Shown in pieces: positions 1,937 through 27,950 of a stretch of DNA of 28,855 nucleotides. The translations under genes were made by a program, and so were the position numbers. The stretch's first letter is position 1. Each line of letters opens with the position of its first letter. The DNA comes from a virus: positions 1 through 28,855 of IMG/VR virus record IMGVR_UViG_3300020197_000115. One strand, 5' to 3'. The notes beneath the pieces were generated by a model. The model did no database searches. It saw only the letters and a list, made by a program, of their open reading frames with translations, and was not told the DNA's origin.

Positions 1937-3943
1937 ATGAGTAATTTCCAAAAAATACTTGACAGTTTTACACTGAGGGACACCCTTAACCCAAAAATTT
2001 GGGAGAATTCTGATGATCCAAAAAAATCTAAAATGAAACCCAAAGTCAGAAAGGGTTTGATGAAGATCGCTAACCAATTCATTGATTATTTGGGTGAAGA
2101 TGCTTTTGTTGAAGATATTACTCTAACAGGATCTTTATCAAACTTCAACTGGTCAGAATATTCAGACTTTGATCTTCATGTTATTGTAGATTTGAAAAAA
2201 TTTGGTAAACATGAGGAAACTTACAAAGAGTTATTTAATTTAAAAAAACAACTTTTTAACGAAAAACACGACATCAAAATCTTCGGATATGATGTAGAGT
2301 TATATGCTCAGGGTGACGATGAGAAACATGATAGTTCAGGAGTTTATTCAGTTATGGATGATGAGTGGATTAATAGACCTGAAAAGATGAAAAATAAAAT
2401 TGATAAGTCTGTCATAGAAGATAAAGTGAAGAACTGGAATGAAAAAATCGAAAATGCTTTAGAGTCACTTGATAAAGATGATTTGGAAAAAGGGAAAAAG
2501 ATGATTGGGGATTTAAAAGACAAACTCAAAGAATATAGAAAATCAGGACTGGAAAAAGAGGGTGAACTTTCTTATGAAAATCTTACTTTCAAATTTCTAA
2601 GAAGAAACGGAATGATTGAAAAATTATTTAATACATACAACAATTACGTAGATCAAGAATTATCAATAGAACAATCTTTGAAAGAAAGTATAATTAAATT
2701 TTTACAAGAAGCACCTTCAAGTGGACATTTACTTGGAGGTGAGAATATGAGTATACCAAAGGATGGGGCACATGCCGGTCAAAGTGGATGGGCTTCAGCA
2801 AACGCATGGGATGTTAAAGCATCTGTCGGAGATCCTGTTTTTGCTCTGGCGGGGGGTACGTTAAAAACATTTACCGATTATGGTGATGATGTAATTAAAA
2901 CAAAGGGAAAAAAATTATATGGTCAAAGCTTCACAATTGATAGCGATAATGGTCTTCCTGACATATACTACACTCATTTAAAAGGAGTACAAATTAGAAA
3001 GGGTAGTAAAGTAGAATGTGGTCAATTGTTAGGATACGTGATGGATTTCCCAAATAGTTCATATGATCATGTTCACATTGGAATAGAATGGGGGCACAAT
3101 ATAAGAGAATTTTTGAATGATGATGGAAGTTTAAAATGTGCTCAAGGACAGAAGTTGGGTAAGTATGGTAAAAAATTCAGTGAGGATGAAGAAATATCTA
3201 ACATTGTTGGAAAATCAAACTTTATACAGGAATTGATTAAGCTTGCTGAAACAAATAAGTCTTTTCAGTACTATCCGAAAAATATAAAATACGAGAAAGA
3301 AGTTGAAGCAATTCAAACCGCATTACAATTTTTAGGATTTTCCTTACCAAAATGGGGAGTTGATGGAAAGTTCGGTCCTGAAACAGAAAATGCAACCAAA
3401 GAATTTCAAAAATCAGTTTCCATTTCATCAGATGGAAAAATCGATGGATTTGATTTAAGATATCTCGCAGCCATGTTGGTGATAAGAAATTTTTCAGAAA
3501 ATGATCTCTCAAAAATCCAAACAAAAAAAGAAATAGATACAGGAAATATTACAGATAAAAATTTCTATGAGAGATTGTTACAAGAATTAGATGCACCTGT
3601 TACAAGTGAAAATCTAAAATTTTTATACGCGTGGAGACAAGCGGAAGGTAAAGGAGGAAGAAATAACCCATTCAATACAACTTGGAAATTACCAGGTTCT
3701 ACAAACATGAACAAAGTAGGGGTACAAAATTATCTTTCGAAAGAGGACGGTATGGTTGCAACGCTAAAAACTTTAAGAAATGGAAGATACTCTTGTATTG
3801 TTCAAGGGTTAAAAAATGATAGTGGTGCTTCAGAGATATCCAAATGTCCGTCTTTAGAAACTTGGGGGACGGGGGACTTAGTTGCTAAAGTGGTAAACTC
3901 CTATGAGAGAGGGGCTTCTCCGAAAATTAAGGATCTAGCATAA
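1937..3943 (+). CDS. multidomain virion lysin: nucleotidyltransferase-like, M23 peptidase, PG-binding, muramidase-like
   Basis: A 668-residue protein with four parts. Residues 55-125 carry a Pol-beta-type nucleotidyltransferase pattern (TGSLSNFNW, then SDFDLHV with D77 and D79, and a later acidic VELYA strand). Residues 265-395 resemble M23/LytM endopeptidases: NAWDV with D292, YTHL with H347 and the HxH pair H378/H380. The usual first zinc His, four residues before the Asp, is replaced by Ala. Residues 452-512 form a PG_binding_1 repeat (VDGKFGPET, FQ). Residues 545-668 resemble a muramidase-like phage domain (NPFNTT, GVQNY, WGTG). The latter three would cut and bind peptidoglycan, probably as a tail- or baseplate-borne entry enzyme. 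The role of the N-terminal domain is unclear. SIIKFLQE|A (residues 251-259), at the junction, fits a prohead-protease-type site. Confidence 0.85.
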   Translation: MSNFQKILDSFTLRDTLNPKIWENSDDPKKSKMKPKVRKGLMKIANQFIDYLGEDAFVEDITLTGSLSNFNWSEYSDFDLHVIVDLKKFGKHEETYKELFNLKKQLFNEKHDIKIFGYDVELYAQGDDEKHDSSGVYSVMDDEWINRPEKMKNKIDKSVIEDKVKNWNEKIENALESLDKDDLEKGKKMIGDLKDKLKEYRKSGLEKEGELSYENLTFKFLRRNGMIEKLFNTYNNYVDQELSIEQSLKESIIKFLQEAPSSGHLLGGENMSIPKDGAHAGQSGWASANAWDVKASVGDPVFALAGGTLKTFTDYGDDVIKTKGKKLYGQSFTIDSDNGLPDIYYTHLKGVQIRKGSKVECGQLLGYVMDFPNSSYDHVHIGIEWGHNIREFLNDDGSLKCAQGQKLGKYGKKFSEDEEISNIVGKSNFIQELIKLAETNKSFQYYPKNIKYEKEVEAIQTALQFLGFSLPKWGVDGKFGPETENATKEFQKSVSISSDGKIDGFDLRYLAAMLVIRNFSENDLSKIQTKKEIDTGNITDKNFYERLLQELDAPVTSENLKFLYAWRQAEGKGGRNNPFNTTWKLPGSTNMNKVGVQNYLSKEDGMVATLKTLRNGRYSCIVQGLKNDSGASEISKCPSLETWGTGDLVAKVVNSYERGASPKIKDLA

Positions 3944-3967: not shown

Positions 3968-3975
3968 TATTTATA
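3968..3975 (+). promoter_or_regulatory. TATTTATA motif (candidate late promoter)
   Basis: An exact TATTTATA, 10 nt before the ATG at 3986, in the short gap after the lysin gene. No -35-like sequence is upstream. The leader is A-rich. Confidence 0.55.
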
Positions 3976-8070: not shown

Positions 8071-9828
8071 GTGACAAAAGAACAATTAATTATTGAAGTA
8101 ACGAAGTGTATGAAAAACACTCCGTATGCGATGAGAACCTATCTTCAAACTTTTGACAATACGGTTAAAAAGTTTGTTCCGTTGGATCTTTTTCCTGACC
8201 AAATAACTTTGGTTGAAGACTACGATAACTTTAACGAAAATATTGCATTGAAGTATAGGCAAGCGGGTGTATCCACCGTGACCGCAGCTTGGGCCTCAAA
8301 AAAGTTAGTTTTTGCGAAAAAAAACAACCCTGAGAAAATCTTGATTATAGCAAACAAACTTGATACTGCTGTTGAGTTTGCTAACAAAGTCAGATCCTTT
8401 TCAGAACAATGGCCAGCTTGGGTAGGTGTTGGATTTTCAATAGAAAAAAACTCACAAAGACATTTCAAATTTACAAACAATTGTGAAGTAAAAGCTGTTG
8501 CAACTTCAAAAGACGCTCTTCGCGGATATACACCAACAATATTAATATTTGACGAAGCCGCTTATATTGAGGCCGATGATGATTTTTGGGCTGCTTGTAT
8601 GGCCTCACTTTCAACAGGAGGAAAAGTGATTGTAATTTCCACTCCGAATGGGTATGACCCGATATATTACGAAATTTATGAACAATCAATGAGAAACATG
8701 AATACTTTCAAGATTACTGAGTTGTTTTGGTATAAAGATCCAAGGTACAATAGGGATTTACAAATGGTGAAGTGTGAGGATCTTACCGACTATCTATTAA
8801 ACCGTGAAAATTACAAAAACACAGAAGTTGTTAATTTGGAAGTAGATAATCCGTATGAAAGGAATTATGATATAGTAAAAGATTATATTAAAAAGGGTTA
8901 TAAACCTTGTTCATCATGGTTTGAGGGAATGGTAAAAAAACTTAAATATGACAAGAGAAAAGTAGCTCAGGAACTTGAGTGTAACTTCCTTGGATCAGGC
9001 GACAATGTATTTGATTCCAATCTTTTAACAAAAATAAAAGATAATGATGTGAAAGAACCCGACGGTAAAATGATGGCAGGTAATCTTTGGATATGGAAAG
9101 ACCCTGAAATGAGTCACCGGTACATCATGGGTGTAGACGTTTCAAGAGGTGACTCAGAGGATTTTTCTTGTATACAAATCATTGATTTTGATGCGAGAGA
9201 GCAAGTATTTGAATATGTAGGTAAAACTCCTCCTGACGTTTTAGCAGAAATAGCTTATAAGTGGGGAAAAATGTATAACGCCATGATAGTCACAGATTTG
9301 ACGGGTGGGATGGGTGTTGCTACAGCAAGAAAACTACAAGAACTAGGATATAAAAATCTCTATGTTGAAGGATTGACAGAGAGAAACAAATACAAGTGGG
9401 ATCCGAAAAGAGACGAAAAGATACCAGGTATCAACTTCAATGCAAAGAGGGTACAGATAATAGCATCATTGGAGGAAGCGTTGAGGCATGAATTTAAAAT
9501 AAGGTCAGAGAGACTCCTAAATGAAATGGGTAAATTTATTTATGTAAATGGTAGACCTGACCATCAAAGGGGTCATCATGACGATGCATTAATGTCCATA
9601 GCAATGGCAATCTATGTTGGGGATACAGCATTTCAAAATTTACAAAAAGTTGTACAACAAACTAAAATTATGATAGACTCATGGCATACAGAGCGTAGTG
9701 AAAACAAAATAAGATCTGATTTTTTTAATCCACATATTCCTGTTTCAAACAACCAAAATCCAAGATATATTAACGAAGCGTCGAGGGAAGACTACAGAAA
9801 ATACGGGTGGTTATTTGGAGCCAAATAA
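8071..9828 (+). CDS. terminase large subunit (gp17-like)
   Basis: A 585-residue DNA-packaging motor. The ATPase half has a Walker A-like RQAGVST (63-69), Walker B ILIFDEAAYIE (D161, E162) and motif III STPNG (190-194). The RNase H-like nuclease half has YIMGVDVSRGD (D356), MIVTDLTGGMG (D409) and HHDDA (D504/D505), matching the acidic triad of T4 gp17. It drives DNA into the prohead through the portal and cuts concatemers. The start is a GTG 6 nt after the previous stop; the next in-frame ATG would remove conserved N-terminal sequence. An insertion around residues 235-290 separates the two domains. Identity is secure from motifs and from the following portal gene. Confidence 0.97.
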   Translation: MTKEQLIIEVTKCMKNTPYAMRTYLQTFDNTVKKFVPLDLFPDQITLVEDYDNFNENIALKYRQAGVSTVTAAWASKKLVFAKKNNPEKILIIANKLDTAVEFANKVRSFSEQWPAWVGVGFSIEKNSQRHFKFTNNCEVKAVATSKDALRGYTPTILIFDEAAYIEADDDFWAACMASLSTGGKVIVISTPNGYDPIYYEIYEQSMRNMNTFKITELFWYKDPRYNRDLQMVKCEDLTDYLLNRENYKNTEVVNLEVDNPYERNYDIVKDYIKKGYKPCSSWFEGMVKKLKYDKRKVAQELECNFLGSGDNVFDSNLLTKIKDNDVKEPDGKMMAGNLWIWKDPEMSHRYIMGVDVSRGDSEDFSCIQIIDFDAREQVFEYVGKTPPDVLAEIAYKWGKMYNAMIVTDLTGGMGVATARKLQELGYKNLYVEGLTERNKYKWDPKRDEKIPGINFNAKRVQIIASLEEALRHEFKIRSERLLNEMGKFIYVNGRPDHQRGHHDDALMSIAMAIYVGDTAFQNLQKVVQQTKIMIDSWHTERSENKIRSDFFNPHIPVSNNQNPRYINEASREDYRKYGWLFGAK

Positions 9829-9829
9829 C

Positions 9830-9837
9830 TATTTATA
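9830..9837 (+). promoter_or_regulatory. TATTTATA motif (candidate late promoter) before portal
   Basis: An exact TATTTATA right after the terminase stop, 28 nt before the portal ATG at 9866. This gives room for a normal leader, and no Shine-Dalgarno is seen in it. Confidence 0.55.
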
Positions 9838-9865: not shown

Positions 9866-11698
9866 ATGGATAATAAGAACCTAACGGTATGGCAACGACT
9901 TTCCGCCGCATTTGGACCTAACGCACTCCTTAATCAGGATTACCCGACCTTTCATTTCGACAAAGAAGTTTTGTTAAAAACACAAGACAAGGCTCAATAT
10001 GAGAAGGAAAAGTTACAAGCACAACAAACTTTCTATTTATCGAATCAATGGGCAAAAATTGAGAATAATTTGTATTCTCAAGCTGTGTATTATGAACCGA
10101 CTAGATTAGCCTCAGTATACGATTACGAGTCTATGGAGTACACTCCTGAGATATCAGCCGCTTTAGACATATATGCTGAAGAATCTACAACCACCAATGA
10201 AGACGGATTTATTCTACAAATTTATTCTGAGTCAAAGAGAATCAAAAGTGTCTTAGCAGATTTATTCAATAACACACTTGATATAAACACCAACTTACCT
10301 ATGTGGACAAGAAATACATGTAAGTATGGTGATAACTTTGTCTATTTGAAATTAGATCCTGAAAAGGGGGTTGTCGGAGTCCAACAATTACCTAATATTG
10401 AGATCGAAAGGGTTGAGGCAGGAATGCACGAAAAAAGAGCTCAATCACTTGAGGATCCTACAGCTCAAAGGGCATTACATTTCAAGTGGAAAAATAAGAA
10501 CATGGAATTCCAATCATGGGAAATCGCTCACTTCAGATTATTGGGTGATGATCGGAAACTTCCATATGGTACCTCCATGCTGGAAAAAGCAAGAAGAATT
10601 TGGAAACAACTTTTACTTTCCGAAGACGCGATGTTAATCTATCGTACATCAAGAGCGCCTGAAAGAAGAATTTTCAAAGTTTTTGTTGGAAATATGAACG
10701 ACGAAGACGTTGAAGCATATGTACAACGTGTTGCTAATAAATTCAAAAGAGACCAAGTTTTAGATCAGAAGACAGGTAATGTGGATCTCAGATTTAATCA
10801 GATGGCTGTAGACCAAGACTACTTTGTACCTGTAAGAGATCCGGCTGCTCCTTCACCTATCGATACTCTACCCGGTGCTGCGAACCTCGCAGAGATAGCC
10901 GACATTGAATATATTCAAAAGAAATTATTGACGGCACTTAGAGTTCCGAAAGCCTTTTTAGGATTTGAAGAAGTTGTTGGTGACGGTAAAAACCTTTCAT
11001 TACAAGATATCCGTTTCGCACGCACAATTAATAGAATTCAAAAGAGTATGTTACAAGAGCTGAATAAGATAGCAATCATACATCTTTTTCTAAACGGATT
11101 TGAGGAAGAGATTGCCAATTTCACTTTAGGTTTAACAAATCCATCTACTCAAGCTGATCTTCTGAAAATTGATGTTTGGAAAGAAAAAATTCTTTTGTAT
11201 AAAGATGCGGTGTCCGATCCTGGTAACGGTATTCAACCCGTATCTTCAACATGGGCTAAAAAACATATTTTGGGGATGTCCGACGATGAAATCAAACTTG
11301 ACTTACAACAACAAAGAATTGAAAAAGCAGTTGGTGAAGAATTAAAAAATACACCAACAGTAATACAGAAAACAGGAATATTTGACAATATAGATAAATT
11401 ATATGGATCAACAACTGGATCTACCGACACTGCTGGATCAACCCCAAGTGGTGAGGTATCAGAACCTGCGTTGGGGGCATTACCTTCTGAAACGACACCA
11501 CCTCCAACTGAAGATGTCGCAGCACCTGAGGTAACAGGACCTGAAGTAGAACCAACAGTACCAGAATCACGATTCGACAATATGAATATTTTGGTCGATT
11601 CGGACATGATTAAGGGTAAAACAATTTTGGACTTGAGTCATGGCCAACAATATTTAGGAGAAATTGAAAAAGAGTTAGACGACTTACTAAATTCCTAA
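9866..11698 (+). CDS. portal protein (gp20-like)
   Basis: A 610-residue T4-type portal, the dodecameric ring at the head vertex through which DNA enters and to which the neck joins. Typical features are the YEPTRLASVYDYESMEYTPEISAALDIYAEE block (about 73-104), SEDAMLIYRTSRAPERRIFKV (about 252-272), the DYFVPVRDP segment and the PKAFLGFEEVVGDGK region after it. After about residue 505 it carries a Thr/Pro/Glu-rich extension and a short helical tail (ILDLSHGQQYLGEIEKELDDLL). Position directly after the terminase, and the gp21-like gene three genes on, support the call. The linker is unlike the compact end of T4 gp20. Confidence 0.95.
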   Translation: MDNKNLTVWQRLSAAFGPNALLNQDYPTFHFDKEVLLKTQDKAQYEKEKLQAQQTFYLSNQWAKIENNLYSQAVYYEPTRLASVYDYESMEYTPEISAALDIYAEESTTTNEDGFILQIYSESKRIKSVLADLFNNTLDINTNLPMWTRNTCKYGDNFVYLKLDPEKGVVGVQQLPNIEIERVEAGMHEKRAQSLEDPTAQRALHFKWKNKNMEFQSWEIAHFRLLGDDRKLPYGTSMLEKARRIWKQLLLSEDAMLIYRTSRAPERRIFKVFVGNMNDEDVEAYVQRVANKFKRDQVLDQKTGNVDLRFNQMAVDQDYFVPVRDPAAPSPIDTLPGAANLAEIADIEYIQKKLLTALRVPKAFLGFEEVVGDGKNLSLQDIRFARTINRIQKSMLQELNKIAIIHLFLNGFEEEIANFTLGLTNPSTQADLLKIDVWKEKILLYKDAVSDPGNGIQPVSSTWAKKHILGMSDDEIKLDLQQQRIEKAVGEELKNTPTVIQKTGIFDNIDKLYGSTTGSTDTAGSTPSGEVSEPALGALPSETTPPPTEDVAAPEVTGPEVEPTVPESRFDNMNILVDSDMIKGKTILDLSHGQQYLGEIEKELDDLLNS

Positions 11699-11706
11699 TA
11701 TTTATA
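11699..11706 (+). promoter_or_regulatory. TATTTATA motif (candidate late promoter)
   Basis: An exact TATTTATA that starts 1 nt after the portal stop codon, 13 nt before the ATG at 11720. An A-tract follows. Confidence 0.55.
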
Positions 11707-11719
11707 AAAAAAATTGACC

Positions 11720-12418
11720 ATGACTTTTGGAGAGGTTAAATCCATAATTGAAGAAAGTTTGATTGAATCCTATAAAGATTCTGAAAATTTCAAAGGTGTG
11801 ATGAAAGAATTCCACACTAATATCTTAACTAATAAGTCTCTATCAAAACTGTACTCTTTGTATGATGATCTGACTTCTCAAAAGTCTTTGTCCGAAAAAG
11901 ATGCGAGAGAATATATCGAGGAAGGTATATCTTTGATAAGATCTATATTAAAAGGAGCAAAATTACCAAAATCTAGCTCTAAACAAATTCAAAATAAATA
12001 CAAAGATTTGGATACTTTGGTTTACACAAAAAATTTTGATATCTCTGAAAGAGTCTCAGCAAAAAATAATATAATTTCAAATTTGACCAAATCTCCAAAT
12101 GTTTCTAAAGAATCAATCAATCTTCCATTAACATCTATGGTTTCAGTAGCCAATCAGACTTTGAAAAGTTACATCGAAACGATGGATGAATCTACCAAAA
12201 AAGATTTCTTTAAAATAATCAAATCAAATCAAAATGATTTGGAGAAAGAGTTCACAACCATCAAAGAAAGTGCTATAAACAAACTTCAAACTCTGTTGGA
12301 GGGCGAAAATGAGTTTGAACTTAAGACAAAAATTTCAGAAACAATAGATAGATTAAAGAATGAAGAGTTCAATCAGATGAATTTTGTTAGGATTAAATCA
12401 CTTGAAAAATCAATCTAA
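11720..12418 (+). CDS. helical protein in the prohead-core (gp67/68) position
   Basis: A 232-residue, Lys/Ser/Glu-rich, almost entirely helical protein. A TTG at 11714 is in frame, but the ATG at 11720 (MTFGEVKSII) suits the A-rich leader better. In T4 the interval between portal (20) and protease (21) holds the prohead core genes 67 and 68, so a core role is suggested by position only; no sequence match is claimed. Residues 5-17 read EVKSIIEESLIE|S and contain a gp21-type L-x-E site, as expected for a core protein processed at maturation. The 3' end overlaps the convergent bS21 gene by 4 bp. Confidence 0.75.
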   Translation: MTFGEVKSIIEESLIESYKDSENFKGVMKEFHTNILTNKSLSKLYSLYDDLTSQKSLSEKDAREYIEEGISLIRSILKGAKLPKSSSKQIQNKYKDLDTLVYTKNFDISERVSAKNNIISNLTKSPNVSKESINLPLTSMVSVANQTLKSYIETMDESTKKDFFKIIKSNQNDLEKEFTTIKESAINKLQTLLEGENEFELKTKISETIDRLKNEEFNQMNFVRIKSLEKSI

Positions 12419-12600
12419 TTATTGATCATTTTTTCTTTGTAAATCGCCTTAAGTTTTTGTGCTCTTTTTTTGATTGAAGGTTTAACATATTCTTTTTTTT
12501 CAAAAAGTTTTTTTTGTTGTTTTGTTTTTATTACCTTGGATTTCAAGTTTTTGAGAGCTTTTTCAATATTATCGTTTCTTCCGATTTCAATAATTAACAT
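12415..12600 (-). CDS. rpsU: 30S ribosomal protein bS21 homolog
   Basis: A 61-residue basic protein that matches bS21 end to end, in the form seen in Bacteroidetes: an MLII start, NIEKALKNLKSK in the first helix, YVKPSIKKRAQKLKAIY in the last, and Lys-rich loops between. bS21 sits on the platform of the small ribosomal subunit beside the 16S rRNA 3' end. In Flavobacterium johnsoniae it helps mask the anti-Shine-Dalgarno, with Tyr54 (as I recall) contacting the tail; Tyr is residue 54 here too. Phage-encoded bS21 is known in several uncultured and pelagic phages. It is on the opposite strand from all neighbouring head genes, so it has its own control. It could replace host bS21 on ribosomes; no Shine-Dalgarno precedes it. 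Confidence 0.92.
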   Translation of the reverse strand: MLIIEIGRNDNIEKALKNLKSKVIKTKQQKKLFEKKEYVKPSIKKRAQKLKAIYKEKMINN

Positions 12601-12620
12601 ACTAACATATATTTCAAAAA

Positions 12621-12632
12621 GTCAATTTTGAC
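12621..12632. promoter_or_regulatory. near-palindromic operator-like site between bS21 and the 12692 gene
   Basis: GTCAATTTTGAC has perfect 5-bp arms (GTCAA/TTGAC) around TT. It overlaps the TTGACA of the plus-strand promoter and lies 21 nt upstream of the bS21 ATG, so a bound protein could control both directions. It resembles the elements at 788-859. Confidence 0.4.
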
Positions 12633-12691: not shown

Positions 12692-13156
12692 ATGAAGAAA
12701 GGAAAAACCTCAAAAATTAATAACTTCGAATCCCTCAAAGTAAATTATGGGACAGTAGATTCAAAAAAATTAAAATCAATTTACATAAACATACAATCAT
12801 GGGTCAATCCCAAAATCGTATCTGATAATTGGAATAGAATTGTATGTAATTTTAGTCGAGAAATCAAACACACAATTTATTACCAACTTGATAGAAAAAT
12901 TTTCGAGGACAAATTAATTGTAGATTTGGATCTCAGGACCTCGGGAATCGTATTTGGAAAAAAATCATTCCTCAATTTGGAAATTAATCTTTTCACTTTA
13001 CAACAAATAGATTTCAAATCAAATATTATCAGAGACTCAGTAAAAAAATTAGTATCCTTGATAAATTCAGAAAACTTTAAAAGTAATAATTATTTTGATT
13101 TTACACTAACCAAAAACGGAGATATTATAAAATCAAAGTCAGAAGTATATTTATAG
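12692..13156 (+). CDS. hypothetical protein between bS21 and prohead protease
   Basis: A 154-residue basic protein of mixed strands and helices. I do not recognise a family. The pattern SIYINIQSWVNPK followed by alternating hydrophobic strands (LIVDLDLRTSGI, SFLNLEINLFTL) suggests a small beta-rich fold. The ATG at 12692 follows a sigma70-like promoter and an A-rich leader; another ATG 11 nt upstream is out of frame. Its last codons contain the TATTTATA motif belonging to the protease gene, so the stop is 11 nt from the next ATG. It lacks any catalytic motif. Confidence 0.75.
   Translation: MKKGKTSKINNFESLKVNYGTVDSKKLKSIYINIQSWVNPKIVSDNWNRIVCNFSREIKHTIYYQLDRKIFEDKLIVDLDLRTSGIVFGKKSFLNLEINLFTLQQIDFKSNIIRDSVKKLVSLINSENFKSNNYFDFTLTKNGDIIKSKSEVYL
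13148..13155 (+). promoter_or_regulatory. TATTTATA motif (candidate late promoter) before prohead protease
   Basis: An exact TATTTATA overlapping the last codons of the upstream gene and 12 nt before the ATG at 13168. That the motif is kept inside coding sequence at the right place supports a function. Confidence 0.5.
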
Positions 13157-13167
13157 AAAAAGTTTTG

Positions 13168-13881
13168 ATGAAACAATATAAAATACTTGGACCACATGAA
13201 ACAGGAAAAGGAATTTTGATTGAGGATGATGCTGGATATCTATCTCCATTAGATAAGTTGAATGAATCTATTTTGAAAGAAGCTCAAGATAGAGACTACA
13301 AAAAACCATTCGAATTTTATGCTGTACTCCAAAAATATAATACAGCTAACAGAAATGGAAGATTTTATCCCGAGACCATACTAAAGAGAGAGGCAGAAAA
13401 ATATAAAAACACAATCAAAAAAGGACTATCAACTTCTGAATTAAATCACCCTGAGTCTTCGTTAATTGATCTTGACAGAGTATCACACATAATTACTGAC
13501 ATATGGTGGGAAGGTAATATTTTAATGGGTAAATTAAAATTATTAACATCTCCAGGTTTTCATGAGAGTGGCATTGTGTCCACCAAAGGAGATATCGCAG
13601 CAAATCTTTTAAGACAAGGAGTCACTATGGGAGTATCATCTCGTGGCGTTGGATCCTTGAAAAAAATAGGGGAGAGGAATGAAGTACAAGATGACTTCGA
13701 ACTAATATGTTTTGATCTTGTTTCATCACCGTCAACACCAGGAGCATATTTATTCCCGAATGTTGAAGATAGAATGAAATATGAAGAAAATTTAGAGGAG
13801 GAGAAAATTACTGAGGTAAAAATTGAAGGAAATAAGTCTATTGATTTAATGAAAAAACTCACCGATTATTTAGATAGATAA
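13168..13881 (+). CDS. prohead core protease (gp21-like)
   Basis: A 237-residue serine protease of the T4 gp21 type that cuts core and capsid proteins after (L/I)-x-E during head maturation and then itself. Visible landmarks are NRNGRFYP (residues 61-68), TSELNHPE with catalytic His94, and GVSSRGVGS with the Ser157/158 nucleophile. The spacing is comparable to T4 His85/Ser140. The ATG at 13168 is chosen over an adjacent in-frame TTG. SILKE|AQ (residues 34-40) could be an autoprocessing site. It precedes the DUF4494 gene, the scaffold candidate and gp23, keeping the T4 order 20-21-22-23. Confidence 0.93.
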   Translation: MKQYKILGPHETGKGILIEDDAGYLSPLDKLNESILKEAQDRDYKKPFEFYAVLQKYNTANRNGRFYPETILKREAEKYKNTIKKGLSTSELNHPESSLIDLDRVSHIITDIWWEGNILMGKLKLLTSPGFHESGIVSTKGDIAANLLRQGVTMGVSSRGVGSLKKIGERNEVQDDFELICFDLVSSPSTPGAYLFPNVEDRMKYEENLEEEKITEVKIEGNKSIDLMKKLTDYLDR

Positions 13882-14133: not shown

Positions 14134-14141
14134 TATTTATA
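14134..14141 (+). promoter_or_regulatory. TATTTATA motif (candidate late promoter) after a terminator
   Basis: An exact TATTTATA between the terminator at 14099-14124 and the ATG at 14152 (10-nt gap). Its place right after a terminator is the best positional evidence that the motif restarts transcription. Confidence 0.65.
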
Positions 14142-14488: not shown

Positions 14489-14496
14489 TATTTATA
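14489..14496 (+). promoter_or_regulatory. TATTTATA motif (candidate late promoter) before scaffold candidate
   Basis: An exact TATTTATA, 23 nt before the ATG at 14520, leaving room for a short A-rich leader. Confidence 0.55.
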
Positions 14497-16189: not shown

Positions 16190-17992
16190 ATGGGAGCATT
16201 ATTAGAATCAGGTCTCGTTGGTAACATCGGTCTTAAGCACCTTAAAGTTATCAAGGAAGACACTATCAACAAATGGGACAAATTAGGATTCTTAGAGGGT
16301 CTTAAAGGTCACCAAAAGGAAAACATCGCTCAGCTTTTCGAAAACCAAGCATCATATTTGATCAATGAAGCAGCTACAACTGACTCATCAGGTTCTTTCG
16401 AAACTGTAGTTTTCCCAATCGTTAGAAGAGTTTTCTCTAAACTTTTAGCTAACGATATCGTTTCAGTACAAGCTATGAACCTACCAATTGGTAAGTTGTT
16501 CTACTTCGTACCTCACATTCAGAGATATCAGTCTCCGGATGAATTATTACCTACAAATGGTGGTGATCACTATGCACCGTTTGGGGCACCTAACGGACCG
16601 TCATCACAAAATGCTGGTTACAACCAATACGATAAAGATCTTTATGATCTTTTCTATGAGGGTAACGAACCAGATTTGGATCCCCCAGGTCTATTCGATT
16701 ATTCCAAAGGTACATTTTCGGCAGAGACCATTACAGCTTCTACGCAAGTATGGAATTCTGCAGGAAGTGCTCTAATCCAATCAGGATACGTTGCAGGTAC
16801 TTACAGAAAAGTAATCATGGCACTCTCAGGTTTCAACAGTGCAGGTCAAGGTCAATTGATCGGACCAGACGGTAACGAACAAGATACTGAAGCTTTCTTA
16901 TCTTCTTTACAAGTTCTTCCAATCACTAATGCAACCGCTAATGGATTCTCAGGTGTTAACTCACCAGTATTATTCAGAGTTGTAACTCAGGTTTACGGAC
17001 AAGGTATTGTACAATACGGTGGACAAGCAACTACTTCATTCCCTTCAACAGGTAATGGTGGATCTTACAACAACATATGCGATGCTAATGGCGTAATTTA
17101 TCTTGAAGCTGATCTTCAAGTTCCTTGTGAAGTAACTTCTTCTTCACTTGATGGTTATTCTGGATTCACTACAACAGTGAACACAGACTACAACCAAGCA
17201 TTCAAGTGTAAGTATAGAGTTTACAAAGAAATGGAATTCGAAGACAGATTGGGTGAGGTTTCTTTCGATCTACAGGCTGTAACAGTATCTGTAACTGAAA
17301 GAAAACTAAGAGCTCAATGGTCACCTGAATTGGCTCAAGACGTTGCGGCATTCCACAACATCGATGCTGAAGCTGAATTAACTGCTCTATTATCAGAGCA
17401 AGTTGCAGCTGAAATCGATAGAGAGATCCTAAGAGACCTTAGAAAAGGTGCAGCTTGGAACTTAAGATGGAACTATAACGGATGGAAGCAATTGGGTAGC
17501 AATGCAGTACCTTATACACAAAAGGACTGGAACCAGACGCTTATCACAGCAATCAACCAAATTTCAGCTCAGATCCACAAATCAACTCTAAGAGGTGGTG
17601 CTAACTGGATCGTTGTATCTTCTGAAATCAGTGCAATTTTTGATGATTTGGAATATTTCCACGTATCAAACGCGGCTCCTGAGCAAGATCAATACAACAT
17701 GGGTATTGAAAGAGTTGGTTCTCTTTCTGGTAGATATCAAGTTTATAGAGATCCTTACTTCCCAGCAAACCAAGTGTTATTGGGTCATAAAGGAACATCA
17801 TTACTTGACACAGGTTATATCTACGCACCATATGTACCTTTACAACTTACTCCAACAATGTATAACCCATTCAACTTCACACCTATCAAGGGTATCATGA
17901 CTAGATACGCTAAGAAAATGGTTAACAACCGTTTCTATGGTAGAATCACAGTTGATGGAGTTAGAACATTTGATTTGAGAGAGTTAAGATAA
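16190..17992 (+). CDS. major capsid protein (gp23-like)
   Basis: A 600-residue HK97-fold capsid protein of the T4 type. The N-terminal propeptide ends NQASYLINE|AATT: Glu60 fits the gp21 consensus and corresponds to the T4 gp23 cleavage after Glu65. The mature part has FPIVRRVFSKLLANDIVSVQAMNLPIGKLFY (about residues 76-106), a Gly/Asn-rich insertion at about 120-300, the RLGEVSFDLQAVTVSVTERKLRAQWSPELAQD block (about 351-382) and a C-terminal segment near NPFNFTPIKGIMTRYAKKMVNN. The codons look more regular than in neighbouring genes, as expected for the most abundant product. The leader is a pure A/T stretch with no Shine-Dalgarno or TATTTATA. A strong terminator follows. Confidence 0.97.
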   Translation: MGALLESGLVGNIGLKHLKVIKEDTINKWDKLGFLEGLKGHQKENIAQLFENQASYLINEAATTDSSGSFETVVFPIVRRVFSKLLANDIVSVQAMNLPIGKLFYFVPHIQRYQSPDELLPTNGGDHYAPFGAPNGPSSQNAGYNQYDKDLYDLFYEGNEPDLDPPGLFDYSKGTFSAETITASTQVWNSAGSALIQSGYVAGTYRKVIMALSGFNSAGQGQLIGPDGNEQDTEAFLSSLQVLPITNATANGFSGVNSPVLFRVVTQVYGQGIVQYGGQATTSFPSTGNGGSYNNICDANGVIYLEADLQVPCEVTSSSLDGYSGFTTTVNTDYNQAFKCKYRVYKEMEFEDRLGEVSFDLQAVTVSVTERKLRAQWSPELAQDVAAFHNIDAEAELTALLSEQVAAEIDREILRDLRKGAAWNLRWNYNGWKQLGSNAVPYTQKDWNQTLITAINQISAQIHKSTLRGGANWIVVSSEISAIFDDLEYFHVSNAAPEQDQYNMGIERVGSLSGRYQVYRDPYFPANQVLLGHKGTSLLDTGYIYAPYVPLQLTPTMYNPFNFTPIKGIMTRYAKKMVNNRFYGRITVDGVRTFDLRELR

Positions 17993-18048: not shown

Positions 18049-18056
18049 TATTTATA
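18049..18056 (+). promoter_or_regulatory. TATTTATA motif (candidate late promoter) after capsid terminator
   Basis: An exact TATTTATA 8 nt after the terminator and only 3 nt before the ATG at 18060. If it is the -10 element, the transcript begins at the start codon (leaderless). Confidence 0.6.
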
Positions 18057-20057: not shown

Positions 20058-20065
20058 TATTTATA
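20058..20065 (+). promoter_or_regulatory. TATTTATA motif in a divergent gap
   Basis: An exact TATTTATA 10 nt before the ATG at 20076. Read on the minus strand it is TATAAATA, the T4 late promoter, 16 nt before the 20041 start. Either or both genes may use it. Confidence 0.5.
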
Positions 20066-27188: not shown

Positions 27189-27196
27189 TATAAATA
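27189..27196 (-). promoter_or_regulatory. TATTTATA motif (candidate late promoter) for the minus-strand virion unit
   Basis: An exact TATTTATA on the minus strand, 4 nt before the ATG at 27184, between the sigma factor stop and the virion unit. It is an example of the motif on the other strand, again in the direction of transcription, and again near-leaderless. Confidence 0.5.
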
Positions 27197-27203
27197 CTTT
27201 CAG

Positions 27204-27950
27204 TTAAATTTTCAATTTAGATTGGGTGAAAAGGTAGAGTCTCTTAAATCGTTTTATTGCACTTCTAATCTCTTTTGTACTCAAATTTGTCATTTCCCTG
27301 AGTGATAGTAATATCACATTTTTATTAAATTTGTTGTTGTCAGCGCCTGAGAAAATCAATTCGTAGTTCTCAAATATATCTATCAAAGCATATCCGAGTT
27401 TCTGTTCGTTATCACTCAGAGACTCTGAATCCATAAACAATTTAAGATCATTGATATATTTTTTTATCAATCCCTCTACGTCTGAAACGTCGTCATCGAT
27501 TCTATAAATCAAATCTGGTCTTTGTTCAAGAGATGAGGAAATGTCCTCATAACTCACCTTTCTATTAGTTTCTTTTTGGTCCTTGATTATTTGGCCCATT
27601 AGATAATTCTTACATATCGTACCGAAATAAGAATAAGCCTTTTTGTTTTTTGCGGGCTTGAATTTGTCCACTTTCGTCATTAAAAACGAATGTGTGTCGA
27701 CATGGATTTCAACAAAATCCATGTCTTTACGATACAATCTATATCGTCTGATTATTGACGAAATCATCTTATCGAGAGGAGCCCGTAAGTATTCGTTGTA
27801 AATTTTGTTTTTTTCCTGCCACGTTTCAGCGACGAGGAAATTTCGAACCGCTGTTTCTTCTCTTACATCGAAATAATTTTCTTTGACTGTTTTTCTACCT
27901 CTTTTTTTTGATAGTGTTTCTTCTGTTTGACCAGAAAGAATCTTGATCAT
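27204..27950 (-). CDS. late-gene sigma factor (gp55-like) with extra C-terminal region
   Basis: A 248-residue protein with a sigma-70 region 2 pattern at residues 50-135: YLRAPLDKMISSIIRRYRLYRK, HVDTHSFLMTKVDKFKP, then KAYSYFGTICKNYLMGQIIKD and RKVSYED. This matches T4 gp55-type factors, which direct host RNA polymerase to late promoters with only a -10 element. T4 gp55 is about 185 residues; here about 60 more follow, with a helix-turn-helix-like end (NVILLSLREMTNLSTKEIRSAIKRFKRLY, about 211-239) that could be a reduced region 4. Its ATG overlaps the glycosyltransferase stop (TAATG). It is the natural reader of the TATTTATA motif. Region 2 is well supported; the extra HTH is an inference. 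Confidence 0.8.
   Translation of the reverse strand: MIKILSGQTEETLSKKRGRKTVKENYFDVREETAVRNFLVAETWQEKNKIYNEYLRAPLDKMISSIIRRYRLYRKDMDFVEIHVDTHSFLMTKVDKFKPAKNKKAYSYFGTICKNYLMGQIIKDQKETNRKVSYEDISSSLEQRPDLIYRIDDDVSDVEGLIKKYINDLKLFMDSESLSDNEQKLGYALIDIFENYELIFSGADNNKFNKNVILLSLREMTNLSTKEIRSAIKRFKRLYLFTQSKLKI

Follow-up and report, generated by a model that had tools for sequence, protein, structure and literature searches.

The closest described systems are carried by Bacteroidetes phages, of which 47 genomes, belonging to huge phages from freshwater and assigned to clades a–e, share one arrangement: a reversed bS21 gene lies between two hypothetical genes, with the genes of the large terminase (TerL), portal protein, prohead protease and major capsid protein (MCP) nearby (Chen et al. 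2022, PMC9723584). Their bS21 is of the Bacteroidetes type. Tyr54, which stacks on the 3' tail of the 16S rRNA (Chen et al., citing Jha et al.), is present in 54 of the 61 phage bS21s of that study, and the other 7 have an aromatic ring at this position. The gene was reported to be transcribed with the late genes and replacement of the host bS21 was proposed; promoters, leaders and autoregulation of rpsU are not discussed (the strings promoter, leaderless and autoregul are absent from the text).

On the host side, the passages of McNutt et al. (2023, PMC9976891) covered here report that rpsU of Flavobacterium johnsoniae has an extended Shine-Dalgarno sequence and is better translated by ribosomes devoid of bS21, which do worse on other mRNAs, and that the Y54A substitution increases the translation of reporters with a strong Shine-Dalgarno. 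About 80% of Flavobacteriales and no Bacteroidales satisfied the definition of an extended Shine-Dalgarno used in these passages. They also deal with phage bS21: a phage protease is suggested to help it displace the host copy and the autoregulation of the host gene is viewed as a counter-defence, while the region preceding the phage gene is not discussed in them. Phages of other hosts (HTVC008M, Mosig, Melnitz, PA5oct, SCTP-2 and Vibrio phage 2.275.O) likewise encode a bS21 but differ from the phage studied here in sequence, host and gene neighbours; that of HTVC008M enters Escherichia coli ribosomes, according to the part of Mizuno et al. consulted.

The window, i.e. the whole stretch of DNA that was analysed, is a virus fragment of 28,855 bases. 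The first-pass annotation had recognized a bS21 gene at 12415..12600 on the minus strand, and this identification holds. The gene (rpsU-like, from ATG to stop TAG) encodes a 61 aa protein that matches Pfam PF01165 Ribosomal_S21 (39.1 bits for a cut-off of 27, E 6.2e-10) and scores slightly under the cut-off of NCBIfam TIGR00030 (28.4 vs 28.95 bits). An alignment with Bacteroidetes bS21 over the whole length had been claimed; the F. johnsoniae protein (7jil_z, E 1.3e-7) can indeed be aligned with no gap, but the alignment covers residues 1–57 of the 61. It places Tyr on Tyr at position 54, as announced. The predicted model (mean pLDDT 84.5, pTM 0.39) has helices at residues 12–34 and 41–60, the second including Tyr54, and five of the six rows retrieved with it by Foldseek are ribosome entries, with a best E value of only 0.25. 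A search of 50,697 named phage records gave no match at an E value of 0.01. The product of 12415..12600 is ribosomal protein bS21 of the Bacteroidetes type and, as Chen et al. had already described Tyr54, this arrangement and Bacteroidetes as hosts, and had already proposed that the host protein is replaced, it constitutes a further example of a known arrangement.

This gene is located in a T4-type head block whose order is TerL, portal, hypothetical gene A, bS21 (reversed), hypothetical gene B, prohead protease and MCP; no difference in arrangement from the phages of Chen et al. was noticed. On the plus strand, the block comprises the large terminase (T4 type, 8071..9828, PF03237), the portal protein (gp20 type, 9866..11698, PF07230, E 3e-81), gene A (11714..12418, 234 aa), gene B (12692..13156, 154 aa), the prohead protease (S77, 13165..13881, PF03420, E 4.7e-25) and the major capsid protein (gp23 type, 16190..17992, PF07068, E 9.8e-71). 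Gene A converges on bS21 and gene B diverges from it, both being kept beside it in relatives. The bS21 gene had been described as antisense to the head genes; this is not so, since it fills its own gap between plus-strand genes and overlaps only the end of gene A, by 4 nt. Gene A has no PHROG or NCBIfam match and two Pfam matches, both below cut-off. Gene B has no family match in Pfam, PHROG or NCBIfam; its predicted model is an alpha/beta fold (pLDDT 86.5, pTM 0.82) with no confident fold match (best Foldseek E value 0.013; VIA-align Z of at most 8.0, within the uninformative range of the tool itself). Upstream of the head block, the window also encodes an HSP20 protein (928–1323, Pfam) and a protein of 668 aa (1937–3943) that matches endolysins and metallo-endopeptidases.

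A scan with the bS21 of the window retrieved 70 viral loci and a scan with host bS21 retrieved 31. The 70 viral relatives of the first scan, together with the dN/dS values of the phage genes (median 0.088 for 123 pairs, 123/123 below 1), argues that the ORF does not result from chance, and the phage bS21 gene is under purifying selection. Scans with the neighbours gave 39 loci for A and, for B, the best 80 of 574 loci; B itself, with 574 relatives in one scan, is strongly conserved. Among these best 80 loci recruited by B, independently of bS21, 72 carry bS21. Seven related contigs (L324, L333, L347, L348, L355, L356 and L359) have A next to B without bS21 between them, and an eighth bS21-less locus ends before A; no bS21 match was found anywhere in these eight records, one of which is 261 kb long. 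As the neighbours are kept in the seven contigs, bS21 is dispensable in some relatives. A tree built from A and B together (96 rows) gathers the distinct empty rows, five in number, in a single group (SH-aLRT 99), i.e. one change. With a root placed at the midpoint rather than inferred, and with many rows recruited through bS21, the empty rows are placed among phages that carry bS21, a position that would fit a single loss. The adjacency of A and B in the seven bS21-less contigs also led to the rejection of either neighbour as a dedicated partner of bS21 (the bS21_CN of Chen et al.); either of the two may correspond to fam498 of these authors.

A phylogeny against host and viral bS21 had been proposed as a check of the Bacteroidetes affiliation. 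It was computed by a quick method on 115 rows (51 thinned phage rows and 64 host rows) and 64 columns, so that many forks are unsettled and the finer order is not resolved. Fifty of the 51 phage rows group in a single clade (SH-aLRT 98), which lies within a Bacteroidia branch of 62 rows uniting the 51 phage rows and 11 host rows with Tyr or His at position 54 (SH-aLRT 99); the outcome of the proposed check is thus in favour of the affiliation. The fifty-first phage row, L174, sits on a very long branch. The host rows nearest to the phage clade, L271 and L292, both lack a Shine-Dalgarno before bS21.

Like the Flavobacterium protein, to which it is homologous, the phage protein has Tyr54 and the invariant residues. 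Position 54 is Y in 85, H in 3 and F in 2 of 90 distinct phage proteins, and K40, R46 and A52 show no variation across these 90 proteins, 54 distinct proteins from Flavobacteriia and 31 other host proteins with Tyr/His54. Hosts and phages differ in the first helix and loop, where most of the 90 phage proteins have S, V, I, K/R and Q in place of the host residues R21, F23, D24, G27 and T28, the host loop G-T/V thus corresponding to K/R-Q in phages. This part of the protein was also found to be divergent in phages by Chen et al. (PMC9723584).

A comparison of the phage gene with the Shine-Dalgarno of host rpsU was missing from the first-pass annotation and, as far as could be found, from print: the open PMC literature, as far as it was covered, yielded no paper that is known to report Shine-Dalgarno loss in phage bS21 genes. 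For this comparison, pairing was measured as the best duplex, in kcal/mol, between the 28 nt preceding the start and the 16S tail. The phage set started from 220 inputs, some contigs being present twice, that gave 204 bS21 matches and 203 starts (L182 was dropped); incomplete loci and those with less than 40 nt upstream were then removed, leaving 94 distinct copies. One locus from IMG/VR, L154, whose bS21 has His54 and also lacks a Shine-Dalgarno, was excluded from the phage counts: its upstream region is identical to that of L256, a bacterial locus, and the two proteins are almost the same, so that host DNA has probably been filed among the viral records here.

In the window, the 28 nt preceding the bS21 start (12601..12628, minus strand) contain no Shine-Dalgarno, the best pairing being −1.6 kcal/mol. 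The strongest pairing among the 94 distinct phage copies is −6.4 and the median −1.5 kcal/mol; none reaches −8 and none is preceded by GGAGG, AGGAG or GGGGG. In contrast, an extended Shine-Dalgarno precedes all of the 80 host rpsU closest to F. johnsoniae (−17.6 to −24.8 kcal/mol, 39 distinct upstream regions), and the ranges of the two sets do not overlap. These hosts, mostly titled Flavobacterium, represent the 80 best of 506 confirmed stretches, hence 80/80 is not a figure for the phylum. In a sample of the phylum that comprises one locus per genome for 110 of 148 genomes (second copies and 38 genomes being left out), the pairing is −13 kcal/mol or stronger for 74 loci and weaker than −6 kcal/mol for 19; for the 31 distinct host bS21 with Tyr/His54 of this sample, these numbers are 18 and 10. 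The contrast is therefore less marked at the level of the phylum than against hosts resembling Flavobacterium, where it is sharp. The six phages of other hosts (from 40 records) are mixed and show no clean contrast, with values from −4.9 to −9.3 kcal/mol in five of them and −17.7 kcal/mol in the sixth. More than one bS21 match (two or three) was obtained for 6 of the 148 Bacteroidota genomes (G039, G090, G098, G105, G120 and G142), and L188 (G039) and L271 (G105) are bS21 copies without a Shine-Dalgarno.

The statement that the phage genes in general lack Shine-Dalgarno sequences was confirmed. Among the 32 genes of the window, the strongest pairings are −11.8, −9.3 and −8.8 kcal/mol, the remainder being weaker. 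In a 149-kb relative with an identical bS21, where genes were called by simple ORF selection, a pairing of −13 or stronger was computed for 1 of the 147 called genes and one of −10 or stronger for 5, with a mean pairing (−3.64 kcal/mol) close to that of shuffled sequences (−3.34). In this respect the bS21 gene resembles the other genes of the phage, so that its lack of a Shine-Dalgarno may need no explanation of its own. This absence may be neutral or inherited, the latter because it is shared by 10 of the 31 wider hosts and by the nearest host rows, L271 and L292.

The region upstream of bS21 also contains promoter-like motifs. An 8-nt box, TATTTATA, is found at 10 positions of the window for 3.0 expected, always 3–28 nt before an ORF start and in the same direction as the gene; its reverse complement, TATAAATA, is the word of the T4 late promoters. 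Nine copies are on the plus strand (1925–1932, 3968–3975, 9830–9837, 11699–11706, 13148–13155, 14134–14141, 14489–14496, 18049–18056 and 20058–20065) and one on the minus strand (27189–27196). In the 149-kb contig, 24 of the 32 occurrences are found at most 40 nt before a called start, vs 3 of 32 for the reverse complement. Before bS21 of the window, only an uncertain, degenerate version was seen: TATATGTT (12604..12611, minus strand), 3 nt before the ATG and with three mismatches to TATTTATA. Closer versions precede bS21 in relatives: a box that differs from TATTTATA at one position at most is located 3–5 nt from the bS21 ATG in 27 of 74 distinct upstream regions (2.0 expected by chance, at most 7 in 200 shuffles), which suggests a near-leaderless bS21 mRNA in part of this phage group. 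A leaderless mRNA as a general rule was rejected, the box being found in these 27 upstream regions only and the copy of the window having three mismatches. For the variant TATTTGTA, no enrichment before other genes was seen: in the 149-kb contig, 1 of its 27 copies is located at most 40 nt from a called start. Another motif, GTCAAA, is present in 45 of the 74 regions for 1.7 expected; it was rejected as a promoter element of bS21, as it is the reverse complement of TTTTGAC, an upstream element of gene B (12626..12632, plus strand) that is also found in all seven empty-site contigs. The window encodes a possible gp55-like late sigma factor (27204..27950, minus strand), a weak assignment (phrog_234, E 0.0087; NCBIfam sigma70-ECF, E 0.037, below cut-off).

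The explanation that we prefer, and to which we give somewhat less than an even chance, is that the phage carries a functional, vertically inherited copy of Bacteroidetes bS21 that escapes feedback, fills the ribosomes, keeps the 16S tail masked and lowers host bS21. It could operate as follows. The gene would be expressed late, as are the bS21 transcripts of related phages (Chen et al., PMC9723584). Its mRNA, which lacks an extended Shine-Dalgarno, could be read by masked ribosomes in the same way as the remaining phage mRNAs devoid of this sequence, and would thus be free of the brake that acts on host rpsU. The protein would then join the host 30S subunits at the bS21 site, which it should fit since Tyr54 and the residues invariant in hosts and phages are kept, and the 3' tail of the 16S rRNA would stay masked. 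As the phage protein fills the pool, few bS21-free ribosomes would be left and host rpsU would be held at a low rate. The phage protein would win the exchange and translation would stay biased toward mRNAs without a Shine-Dalgarno; in sum, the identity, synteny, conservation, selection, tree position and missing signal are observed, and we infer incorporation into ribosomes, a fall of host bS21 and a benefit to late phage mRNAs. The interpretation given in the first-pass annotation is partly supported, namely for the Bacteroidetes type, Tyr54, the lack of Shine-Dalgarno sequences in phage genes and the tree; entry into host ribosomes and a preference for phage mRNA are proposals for this phage. 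Several points count against the preferred mechanism: the signal is also missing in part of the wider hosts, in the nearest host rows and in phage genes in general, the seven empty-site contigs do without bS21, and, according to the covered passages of McNutt et al. (PMC9976891), translation of rpsU by bS21-replete ribosomes is reduced but does not stop.

The Shine-Dalgarno comparison points to a possibility other than a phage protease, namely that the phage exploits the feedback loop of its host. In this more specific proposal, which is tentative and rather doubtful, the phage would capture the translational feedback of the host: a bS21 that is able to mask, and whose gene escapes the Shine-Dalgarno control, would keep the ribosomes replete and turn host rpsU down, the mRNA of the box-bearing relatives being leaderless or nearly so. 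If true, the takeover of ribosomes would be self-reinforcing and would require neither a protease nor a direct repressor. In F. johnsoniae, rpsU'-gfp reporters and a strain depleted of bS21 were used in the covered passages of McNutt et al. (PMC9976891).

Other explanations can be weighed against the preferred one, that of a feedback-free bS21 copy that also lowers host bS21. The phage protein may only keep ribosomes replete as host synthesis falls, the missing Shine-Dalgarno being neutral, inherited or set by base composition. We consider this unlikely, even though phage genes lack a Shine-Dalgarno as a class and some Bacteroidia hosts, including the nearest host rows, have none before rpsU; according to the covered passages of McNutt et al. 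(PMC9976891), feedback should raise host bS21 in Flavobacteriales when it is short, and a phage copy for supply alone would therefore be less needed in this order. Equally unlikely in our opinion is a specialised ribosome (Chen et al. 2022), in which the phage bS21 would replace that of the host, its changed first helix and loop would select phage mRNAs and the missing Shine-Dalgarno would be incidental. The alteration of R21, F23, D24, G27 and T28 in most phage proteins, in the very region that diverges in the data of Chen et al., speaks for it; however, this divergence may mean drift as well as a changed contact, and the feature to be read in phage mRNAs is hypothetical.

A role outside the ribosome, in the virion or in head assembly for instance, would account for the constant location of bS21 beside the head genes in the relatives that have both neighbours, and packaging was raised as a possibility by Chen et al. 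(PMC9723584). It is nevertheless very improbable, given the conservation of the residue that contacts the 16S tail and of the full bS21 length.

Matches to bS18 and ClpS were absent from all six contigs searched, which may be fragments. In some phages of other hosts, Clp genes are found next to bS21: the bS21 gene follows a ClpX-type gene in PA5oct (L427) and SCTP-2 (L429), and a gene encoding a ClpS-like adaptor comes after bS21 in SCTP-2 and Vibrio phage 2.275.O (L426). These neighbours recall the protease idea put forward in the passages of McNutt et al. (PMC9976891) covered here.
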